9,096 bases of DNA from Deltaproteobacteria bacterium RIFOXYA12_FULL_61_11 (GTDB taxonomy: Bacteria > Bdellovibrionota_F > JAHFAK01 > YA12-FULL-61-11). The notes under the pieces were generated by a model that was not told where the DNA came from, did no database searches, and saw only the letters and a program-made list of their open reading frames with translations. Numbering within the stretch: position 1 is the stretch's first letter; each line of letters opens with the position of its first letter. Positions 1 to 7,748 of the stretch are shown here, piece after piece. Location: NCBI GenBank assembly GCA_001799195.1, contig MGSU01000158.1, positions 1 to 9,096 of the forward strand, read 5' to 3'. The position numbers and the translations under genes were made by a program.

Positions 1-9
1 CTCTCACAC

Positions 10-216
10 CGACGCCGCTGCATCCTGCGCGTCGCTTGGAGGTCCGCATCCTTGCGGTCGCCCCCACCATGCTCATCCTTGCGCCCGATGGTGCTGCATC
101 CTGCGCACCACCTGGAGGTGTGCATCCTTGCACTCACCGTGGTGGGGGTCCCCCGTCGGTGCCACCCCAGCGAGGTAGTGTCTATCCAGGGCACTACACC
201 CAAGACTGGACTATTA
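10..216 (+). repeat. Dispersed hairpin-rich repeat, copy A
   Basis: Non-coding structured repeat upstream of the thyX-like gene; it probably continues left of the window. Two blocks recur in inverted orientation at 5727-5782 (copy B). Block 1, 63-84, matches 5782-5761 at 20 of 22 bases. Block 2, 139-173, matches 5760-5726 at 32 of 35 bases and carries the core GGGGGTCCCCC (144-154) inside a stem 139-144/160-165. The right edge also resembles copy B, with ACACCCAAGA against CCACCCAAGA. Copy A carries 54 nt (85-138) between the two blocks that copy B lacks, made of extra small hairpins. No convincing protein is encoded. The type of element (MITE-like, REP-like or RNA-acting) is not known to me. 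Confidence 0.7.
17..138 (+). repeat. 76-bp-period direct duplication of a two-hairpin unit inside copy A
   Basis: Positions 17-55 recur at 93-131 with 33 of 39 bases identical. Each unit holds two hairpins. Hairpin 1 has an inner stem GCA/TGC with loop TCC (20-28 and 96-104), closed by an outer stem 11-15/29-33 (GACGC/GCGTC) in unit 1 and 90-94/105-109 (GGTGC/GCACC) in unit 2. Hairpin 2 has loop TCCT: CCGCA/TGCGG at 44-57 and GTGCA/TGCAC at 120-133. The substitutions between units fall largely in paired positions and keep the pairing. A related CATCCTTGCGC stretch lies at 74-84. Confidence 0.65.
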
Positions 217-276
217 CCTTGTTCCCTTGCTCTTCACTAGAATGAAGGGAGACAACCTTCGAACCCCGGCTCTCGA

Positions 277-5665: not shown

Positions 5666-5689
5666 CCCGAGACGTCATCATTAAGCTTG

Positions 5690-5827
5690 CACGTTCGATC
5701 TTGGGTGGATGGCAGACAGTATCTTTCACTGGGGTGGCGCCGACGGGGGACCCCCGCCACGCGCAAACATGAGCATGGTGGGCGCGAGAGGCGACAGGAC
5801 CCCAGTATCCACCCAAGAGTGAACGTG
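5690..5827 (-). repeat. Dispersed repeat copy B with terminal inverted repeats (MITE-like)
   Basis: About 138 bp, inverted relative to copy A. Its ends, 5690-5710 and 5807-5827, form an inverted repeat with 19 of 21 bases paired, including 12 uninterrupted pairs (TCTTGGGTGGAT / ATCCACCCAAGA). Internally, 5734-5739/5755-5760 form the stem GTGGCG/CGCCAC enclosing CGGGGGACCCCCG (5744-5756). This is the same stem as copy A 139-144/160-165, where two pairs are G-T wobbles instead of G-C. The block 5761-5782 is shared with copy A 84-63. It fills most of the divergent gap between the cysteine-rich gene and the glycosyltransferase, and its right end coincides with the stop codon that closes the glycosyltransferase frame on its 5' side. 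It encodes no transposase. Confidence 0.65.
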
Positions 5828-5828
5828 A

Positions 5829-7748
5829 ACATCGTGGGGGTGGGTTCTGCAGTCGTTCCCGGTCTTCCTCGCCCTCGACGGTCTGCTCGCCCTGGGCTGC
5901 TGGCGCATAGTCTCGAGGCATTGCGCCCCCACGGACGGTCGAGCCTTCGTCCTCGTCGCCACCGGCATCCTGTTCTTCTCCGCGCTGACCTTCACTGTTT
6001 TGCTCCTCGGGCTCGCCAGCCTGCTCGCGCCGCCGACGATCCACGCTAGCGCCGGAATTCTCGGGTTGCTCTTCCTGGGTCTCTCTCGCGGTCCCGCAAG
6101 AACCGTCTCTCCCGCGCACGCTCCTCCGCTTCTCCTCGGGACGAAACTCCTGCTCTGCCTCGTCGGCCTCGAGGCGCTATTTTTGGCGGCGCGACTCTGG
6201 CTCTTCCCTCCCCGCATCCTCGATGCCCTGACCTATCACCTCCCCCCGGCCGTGCAGTGGTACCACCTCGGCGCAATACCCGCGATCCTGGAGACCGGTG
6301 TCACGCGCGTGGATTCGATGGCGCTGGGCAGCACCCTCCTCTCGCTCTGGGCCTTCACCCTGCTCGGCCACGACGCGCTGATCGAACTCCCGCACTTCCT
6401 CTGGGCCCTCTTGCTGCTGCCCCTGACCCGCGAGTTGGCCGGGCGCTTGGGCGTCTCCCGACCCTGGGCCTGGACCTGCGCCGCGCTGGCCTTCACCACC
6501 CCCGCGGTCCTGCTCCAGGCTGACACGGCCCTGGATCACCTTGCCCTCGGGGTCAGCACCCTGGCCGCGCTGCTCTGCCTGTTGCGTTGGTTGGAGAGCG
6601 GCAGGCGCCTGCATCTCCTCGTGTTCGCGCTGGCTTCGGGCCTCATGCTGGGCTACAAGCTCAGCGCTCCATTGCACCTCGGGGTCTTCTGGCTGGGGGC
6701 ATGGTGGGTGCGGCGCGGTAGTGCTTCCCCTCACAAGCCTCTTCTCGAACCCGCCCCCCGCCTCCTGCCGAACCTGGGGCTCGCCGCCTCGCTCTCCCTC
6801 GTCCTCGGCGGGTACTGGTATTTGCGCAATCTCCTCGTCCACGGCCGGCCCCAGGGGAACTTCCACCACCCCATGTTCGACTTCTCGCCCGGGTCCGAGG
6901 CCGGCTACCTCGGCTATCACCTCGGGCTCCTCGGGCAGAACCTCACCGACCTGCCCTCCCGGCTCCTCGACGGTGAAGCTTGGTTCAGTCCGGACCTGCC
7001 CTTCATGTCCGGCTTCGGACCGCAATTCTTTACCTTCGGCCTGCTCGGCCTGGTCTGGACCCTCGTCGGGCTGCGCGAGAAGACCGCCAGAGCGCGACTG
7101 GCCCACCTTCCCATGCTGTGCAGCCTCGCGCTCCTGCTGCAGTATTTCTGGCTCTACGCAACGCCTTTCTCCTATCGTTTGTACCTGTTCCTACCGCCCT
7201 GTGCCCTGGCCGCCGGCTTCGCCGCCCTCGAGCACACCGGTGCATTCAGGCACAAGGGCAAGCGCTTGTTCCTGGCAGCCCTGGCCCTTGGCAGCGGATT
7301 GTGGTCCATAACCATGACCGCCCTACCCCTGACCCACCAACCCGATTTCATGCCCACCTTCTTGGCCCTCCCGCGGGAACACCGCACCGTGGCGAACTTC
7401 CTACCCATCACCCCGGCGCACCTGCCCTACCGTTTCCTGGCCAACGCGGTCGCCGCGGACGAACCCCTGGCCTATGTCGGCGGAGAAGATGACTGGAGCT
7501 ACGTCTTCGTCGACCCGGCCTGGCGCCGCCGCCTAGTCCATCTCGAGGACGCCTGCCTGGAAACCTCGACCCCCGGGACCCAGCGCCTCGCCCCACGCTG
7601 TGCCCACCGTCTTGCAGCGGCCGGGGTTCGGCTGCTCTGCACCTGTCGCTACACCTCCTGCGCTGTCCTGGAGCCGGGCAGCGGCACCCTACTGGTGCCC
7701 GGCCTCTATCTTGTGCCCCTTCCCGGGGAGGCCACGCATGCACCTTGA
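5829..7748 (+). CDS. GT-C-type polytopic membrane glycosyltransferase (GT39/ArnT/PMT-like)
   Basis: Predicted inner-membrane enzyme moving a sugar from a polyprenyl-phosphate donor to an envelope acceptor. The open frame gives up to 639 aa with about 10-13 hydrophobic helices and a short soluble C-terminal part from about 7440. The family mark is the Asp in the first outer loop followed by YHLP: DALTYHLPPAVQWYH, with the Asp codon at 6222-6224. Further support is LDHLALGVSTLAALLCLLRWL (from 6531) and FSYRLYLFLPPCALAAGF (from 7168). The start is unresolved. The frame opens after TGA 5826-5828 and already encodes two convincing membrane segments before 6000 (5847-5911 and 5944-6026). Yet it has no ATG, GTG or TTG until TTG 6000, which has no ribosome site and would cut into the second helix. 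CTG 5847, preceded by a G-rich run, is one possibility; loss of the true 5' end to repeat B is another. Substrates cannot be named. Confidence 0.75.
   Translation, partial: TSWGWVLQSFPVFLALDGLLALGCWRIVSRHCAPTDGRAFVLVATGILFFSALTFTVLLLGLASLLAPPTIHASAGILGLLFLGLSRGPARTVSPAHAPPLLLGTKLLLCLVGLEALFLAARLWLFPPRILDALTYHLPPAVQWYHLGAIPAILETGVTRVDSMALGSTLLSLWAFTLLGHDALIELPHFLWALLLLPLTRELAGRLGVSRPWAWTCAALAFTTPAVLLQADTALDHLALGVSTLAALLCLLRWLESGRRLHLLVFALASGLMLGYKLSAPLHLGVFWLGAWWVRRGSASPHKPLLEPAPRLLPNLGLAASLSLVLGGYWYLRNLLVHGRPQGNFHHPMFDFSPGSEAGYLGYHLGLLGQNLTDLPSRLLDGEAWFSPDLPFMSGFGPQFFTFGLLGLVWTLVGLREKTARARLAHLPMLCSLALLLQYFWLYATPFSYRLYLFLPPCALAAGFAALEHTGAFRHKGKRLFLAALALGSGLWSITMTALPLTHQPDFMPTFLALPREHRTVANFLPITPAHLPYRFLANAVAADEPLAYVGGEDDWSYVFVDPAWRRRLVHLEDACLETSTPGTQRLAPRCAHRLAAAGVRLLCTCRYTSCAVLEPGSGTLLVPGLYLVPLPGEATHAP

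Follow-up and report, generated by a model that had tools for sequence, protein, structure and literature searches.

The described systems closest to the repeats reported here are the REP sequences and the RAYT enzymes linked to them. REPs lying within palindromes or genes are on record (PMC3733652, PMC6006769), as are complementary stem variants inside REP families, and most REP dimers in the literature are inverted (PMC3733652). RAYT and IS200 enzymes bind single-stranded hairpins, using a tetranucleotide guide located 5′ to the foot of the hairpin; in the RAYT superfamily, N119 is essential in vivo and HuH, W, and Y are listed as conserved residues (PMC6006769). The spread of REP-type hairpins is still poorly understood. 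The genome analyzed here, from a host lineage with almost no sequenced relatives, offers such hairpins in layers, as sites with and without a unit, inserts nested in one another, tandem arrays, and composites in a transposon with readable 8-bp duplications.

The window, meaning the whole 9,096-nt stretch that was analyzed, is contig C158 of a 4.64-Mb MAG composed of 342 contigs. Its positions 1 to 150, used as a query, matched 41 places in the same genome, and the pattern CCATGCTCATNNTTGCGC occurred at 92 places genome-wide, 87 of which, as their flanks showed, are copies of a single dispersed element that we call element I. This element is about 130 to 245 bp long, is dispersed intergenically, and has the consensus ends GTAWNNNTTCAGTCTTGG...CCAAGACTGAANNNWTAC in the 73 copies alignable at both ends. 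In those 73 copies, the two 8-bp flanks are 50.9% identical, compared with 26.0% for shuffled partners (500 shuffles; maximum, 32.2%). The signal singles out 8 bp: identity falls to 36.8% at 9 bp and lies near background at 6 and 10 bp. Given that it is non-coding and has terminal inverted repeats (TIRs) and a target site duplication (TSD) of constant length, element I is a MITE.

The window opens inside a long form of element I (positions 1 to 217, plus strand), delimited by the core common to the 87 copies and by the ends of the 73 aligned copies; its left end is missing because the contig begins there. Several contigs, C158 included, start or stop within element I, a pattern expected when repeats break an assembly. 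The arms of the core hairpin, CCCCCACCA at 61 to 69 and TGGTGGGGG at 140 to 148 (both plus strand), appear in DNA and RNA folds and are kept across copies. The right TIR, CCAAGACTGGACTATTAC, occupies 200 to 217 on the plus strand; its consensus across the 73 copies, CCAAGACTGAANNNWTAC, is followed by the 8-bp TSD. A second copy (L039), a short form without inserts, lies between divergent genes at 5687 to 5830 on the minus strand, with TIRs at 5687 to 5704 and 5813 to 5830 and a TSD that is not recognizable (1 of 8 positions matching). The window also encodes, at 340 to 2001, an unusually long protein of 553 amino acids with two stretches matching Thy1 (thymidylate synthase complementing protein).

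The genes flanking element I are divergent in 31 cases, convergent in 3, and codirectional in 32, as judged with a simple strand caller that was correct for all eight test stretches in the window. Among codirectional genes its two orientations occur 20 and 12 times, a bias that is not significant. The prevalence of divergent-gene intervals places element I chiefly upstream of genes; REPs, by contrast, lie mostly downstream of them (PMC3733652). Promoter-region targeting or a regulatory effect is possible. A search of the genome for an autonomous partner found none, and places that have only the TIR were truncated copies or chance matches in genes. IS66 elements have GTAA ends and an 8-bp TSD. 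An IS66-type transposase is present on C91, where the gene is cut by the contig end and ends matching element I were not seen at that edge. The enzyme that moves element I would be a DDE-type transposase.

Many copies of element I carry inserts of 54 bp. No insert is present in 47 of the 87 copies, the rest have one at site A, site B, or both, and two copies have a further 54-bp insert at a site C. In the window, unit A fills site A at 9 to 62 (plus strand; covariance model match, 76.8 bits) and is absent from the copies that lack an insert there. Unit B fills site B at 85 to 138 (plus strand; 78.0 bits), within the core-hairpin loop beside the 3′ arm, and copies in which this site is empty read CTTGCGC^GTGG. 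Perfect (8/8) TSDs flank both long forms (L007 with A and B; L029, L127, and L130 with A; L022 with B) and short forms (L028, L057, L063, and L065), which indicates that the composites were copied as wholes; copying of whole composites accounts for the recurrence of the same unit type at the same site. One unit outside the window (L035, C338:18635-18688) is a chimera of the 5′ half of A and the 3′ half of B with an unpaired hairpin 1, as if a deletion had occurred between the TGCATCCTGCGC motifs common to A and B.

Each unit folds into two hairpins, as assigned from the curated alignment and its pair counts. In unit A, hairpin 1 spans 13 to 34 (stem 13-18 with 29-34, a C15×T32 mismatch, and an inner GCA-TCC-TGC), and hairpin 2, CCGCA-TCCT-TGCGG, spans 44 to 57. 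In unit B, hairpin 1 (TGGTGC t GCATCCTGC GCACCA) spans 89 to 110, and hairpin 2 (GTGCA-TCCT-TGCAC) spans 120 to 133; all four are on the plus strand. A first-pass annotation of this DNA had recognized a pair of related double-hairpin sequences at an offset of 76 bp, and the covariance model places them at the coordinates given above. It had described them as a 76-bp duplication differing at 6 of 39 bases. The two are not in tandem, since 76 bp is the sum of a 54-bp unit and 22 bp of element I and the units are absent from many element-I copies, and they differ at 12 of 54 aligned columns. Units A and B are paralogous mobile inserts, and their divergence probably predates their arrival in element I.

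The same annotation had counted four complete base pair swaps between the two sequences. Those in hairpin 2 are exact: C44-G57 and C45-G56 become G120-C133 and T121-A132, and the loop is unchanged. Those proposed for hairpin 1, A12-T32 and C13-G31 becoming G91-C108 and T92-A107, do not join homologous positions, because 12-13 align to 88-89; GACGC/GCGTC of unit A had been compared with GGTGC/GCACC of unit B in a shifted register in which the 5′ sides are non-homologous. In the homologous register, C13-G34 becomes T89-A110 and C16-G31 becomes T92-A107, both complete swaps, and the C15×T32 mismatch becomes the pair G91-C108. The count of four swaps thus holds, with one repaired mismatch in addition, but the hairpin-1 pairs are different ones.

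Fourteen distinct units align nearly gap-free. A MAFFT alignment (A1) misplaced the hairpins of types C and K, and a cleaner seed (A2) was therefore used for the covariance model. The unit structure, ....((((((.(((...)))))))))........((((((....))))))...., has 15 pairs, with 85.7% of cells paired in the 14 units, compared with 22 to 44% when the structure is slid along the alignment. Nine pairs change on both sides, and cells with two-sided changes number 37, compared with 14.1 ± 2.7 after shuffling and at most 12 in slid structures. The first-pass annotation had suggested that the folded form is what is maintained and had proposed a genome-wide covariance model search with a check of covariation. 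The search (model R1) found 91 double-hairpin units in the MAG and none in the single other genome that made up the phylum comparison, and covariation is strong. Among 93 aligned matches, which form 70 distinct rows, two-sided changes occur at 10 of 15 pairs, and the covariation score is 0.319, compared with 0.106 ± 0.008 shuffled and at most 0.074 in slid structures, in an alignment that leans towards the structure because it was fitted to the model.

We also applied an R-scape-like null, in which equal numbers of changes per column were dropped randomly on the branches of a FastTree tree in 60 simulations. The top six of 1,275 column pairs are all stem pairs. Two of them, both in hairpin 2, are individually significant (E < 0.02; no simulated score as high), and the four in hairpin 1 have E values between 0.2 and 1. 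One hairpin-2 pair occurs as CG, GC, UA, and AU. These results support the suggestion that the fold is maintained. Direct swaps of C-G to G-C and of C-G to T-A with few G-U intermediates could also arise if replication template switching between the arms kept them complementary and introduced double changes in one step, with no selection on the fold, and the creation and maintenance of hairpins by template switching have been documented (PMC8794818). We consider this improbable as the explanation of the units, given that the conserved apex motif, the linker, and the linkage to a transposase described below need another cause; the process is nonetheless compatible with the explanation that we favor.

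Covariation could also reflect selection on a transcript, with the units acting as functional RNA structures such as mRNA stabilizers, terminators, or small RNAs. None of 200 shuffled sequences folds as well as the 215-nt region, which has z scores of -3.0 as RNA and -4.0 as DNA, and REPs elsewhere do work as RNA elements (PMC3733652). These observations and the strength of the covariation agree with an RNA function, which we nevertheless judge quite unlikely. The window has no Rfam match at the gathering score, and G-U accounts for only about 12 of 841 paired cells, a pattern more like DNA than like long-selected RNA. Element I is without orientation bias between codirectional genes and lies mostly upstream of genes, and units are also found nested in the hairpin loops of others or within coding frames. 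The few G-U pairs, the absence of strand bias relative to flanking genes, and the linkage to an HUH enzyme lead us to lean towards single-stranded DNA, rather than RNA, as the working form.

The layout of the unit is constant: hairpin 1, a linker ending in GGAGG or GTAGG, and hairpin 2 with a conserved NNGC-ATCCYT-GCNN apex. Both hairpins have a GCATCC-TGC apex in the same orientation, rather than the two inverted REPs of a REPIN. A search for the REP guide GT[AG]G found GTAG before hairpin 2 in type C units only, and most units have GGAG there. Readings of the units as attC sites, CRISPR, or riboswitches were considered and dropped.

A repeated gene has several of the units at its 3′ end and encodes a Y1_Tnp domain that scores above the Pfam cut-off. 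A search with the transposase protein gave 43 matches in the genome, many of which are fragments or lie where a contig ends, and H59, H61, Y115, and N119 of E. coli RayT (NP_414763.1), which comprise the HUH motif, the catalytic tyrosine, and N119, are invariant in all seven aligned ORFs. The best NCBIfam model is the REP-associated tyrosine transposase (NF047646), with scores of 19.8 to 36.5 bits that fall below the cut-off of 80 and make these proteins distant RAYT-like ones. A PDB sequence search with the transposase returned no match.

Of the 33 units located elsewhere than in element I, 10 have a RAYT-protein match no more than 700 bp away, compared with an expectation of about 0.45 (binomial p ~1.6e-11, a value that overstates the linkage because it treats tandem and nested units as independent). 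The linkage spans six contigs (C56, C194, C289, C192, C199, and C306), further contigs without a scored RAYT match have the same gene end, and several other units end in the gene's 3′ sequence CGACGCGTCGAAAAAAGACTGA. The 54-bp unit is thus physically associated with a RAYT gene, as REPs are. Transposase genes without a unit occur on C341, C5, C295, C161, C141, and C25; those on C341 and C5 end in ...TTCCGACACGTCGAAAAAAGACTGA, and the others end similarly. Paralogous gene ends carry one unit on C56, C35, C199, C306, and C104 and two on C194. Unit-free and unit-bearing ends differ by clean 54-bp steps, the empty sites being paralogous copies in the same genome.

At one locus (L370, C192:1-3000), the transposase gene is internally deleted and both ends are kept with their units, resembling a miniature derivative. 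At transposase gene 3′ ends (e.g., L389 near 2160), the stop codon falls within a strong hairpin, AAGACTGAGCCGA-CCTC-TCGGCCGTCTT. The 8-mer AAGACTGA from this hairpin recurs in the element-I TIR, perhaps by chance.

The 33 units outside element I occupy varied settings. On C287, units stand in tandem with an exact 54-bp period and also lie within another palindromic repeat with CCTCACCCC ends. The same contig holds a family of palindromic repeats bounded by ACCTCACCCC...GGGGTGAGGT, in part with tandem 54-bp units (L287, C287:1200-4200). Other units are found 3′ of genes or in open frames (e.g., on C62 and C188). Two of them (L375, C62:15127-15180; L374, C188:7480-7533) appear to be in frame in long ORFs, contributing 18 codons and no stop, like Rickettsia palindromic elements. 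The 54-bp unit is, like a REP, an imperfect palindrome that is extragenic in high copy, with a few copies in coding frames.

The units could instead be inactive passenger DNA, i.e., duplicated pieces of transposase gene ends that recombination and element I have dispersed. In favor of such an origin, the sequence at the unit start, CCGACGCCGCTGC, also ends some transposase genes on the 3′ side, and the tandem arrays on C287 and the chimeric unit formed by deletion between A and B would fit it. We regard it as very improbable, because units occur at unrelated sites (C188, C62, C161:26315, C287, and element II) and nested in loops and because their stems covary.

Nesting was found in at least eight places (L142, L243, L361, L364, L370, L376, L377, and L379), where one unit sits in the loop of hairpin 1 of another, right before the 3′ arm. 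Removal of the inner unit restores a canonical outer unit. Unit B is placed likewise, at the 3′ foot of the core-hairpin loop of element I. The nested cases involve two inner types, and independent events may therefore be few; a comparison of insert junctions revealed no clear common target motif. The positions of unit B inside the core hairpin and of inner units inside hairpin 1 of outer units raise the possibility that the RAYT-like enzyme inserts units at the loop/3′-arm junction of existing hairpins, so that target and substrate are the same and structures grow by recursive nesting, with a DDE-type MITE adding a second transposition system. We offer this proposal tentatively and consider it rather unlikely.

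We favor, with a probability of roughly two in three, an explanation with two layers of mobile DNA, in which REP-like, RAYT-linked units are carried by a MITE, element I. The 54-bp units, each with its two hairpins in direct order, would be REP-like modules of the genome's RAYT-like Y1/HUH transposase family. Judging from the sequences, this family most likely recognizes the units and moves them, or once moved them, as single-stranded hairpins; such recognition would leave the stems free to change while still pairing. Element I, a non-autonomous transposon with TIRs and an 8-bp TSD, would have received units at three sites, and a DDE-type transposase would then have copied the composite, leaving the same unit type at the same site in many copies. 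By analogy, the unit appears to match a RAYT/IS200 substrate in outline, with a conserved apex, stems that are free but paired, and GGAG or (in type C) GTAG before hairpin 2. Full REP membership is opposed by a guide that is mostly not GT[AG]G, by direct-order hairpins, and by a multicopy transposase.

The element-I core and the units were absent from the one other genome of the phylum, and the plasmids, phages, and viral contigs searched gave no match. A scan of genome contigs with a poorly specified 18-nt pattern (16 specified bases) gave matches at chance level, with flanks unlike the core. A search of open-access papers turned up no description of double-hairpin modules in direct order that nest mutually and ride a MITE. 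The compensated stem variants form a natural series for asking whether a RAYT-like enzyme reads the pairing, the apex, or the guide.

Compared with bacterial MITEs (e.g., RUP, NEMIS, and ERIC; PMC10969869), element I is likewise short, non-coding, bounded by TIRs and a TSD, and dispersed between genes, but it has a conserved hairpin core that took up RAYT-linked modules. Rickettsia palindromic elements (PMC10969869) are also small palindromic repeats found both between genes and in frame in ORFs. The units differ from them in sequence, length, and architecture and are linked to a transposase family. Fungal mitochondria have double-hairpin elements that, like the units, show two hairpins with a short linker, compensated stem changes, and nesting. 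No transposase is known for them; they are organelle DNA, with no sequence relation to the units shown. The closest likeness is to REP/REPIN sequences and RAYT (TnpA-REP), which share short GC-rich hairpins in many copies, complementary stem changes among subfamilies, and units at HUH/Y1 transposase genes with the catalytic residues of E. coli RayT. In contrast to that system, the units here have two direct-order hairpins in a fixed 54-bp module, have mostly GGAG instead of GT[AG]G, nest in each other's loops, and ride a MITE, and the usual single RAYT is replaced by transposase genes in multiple copies, many of them fragments.
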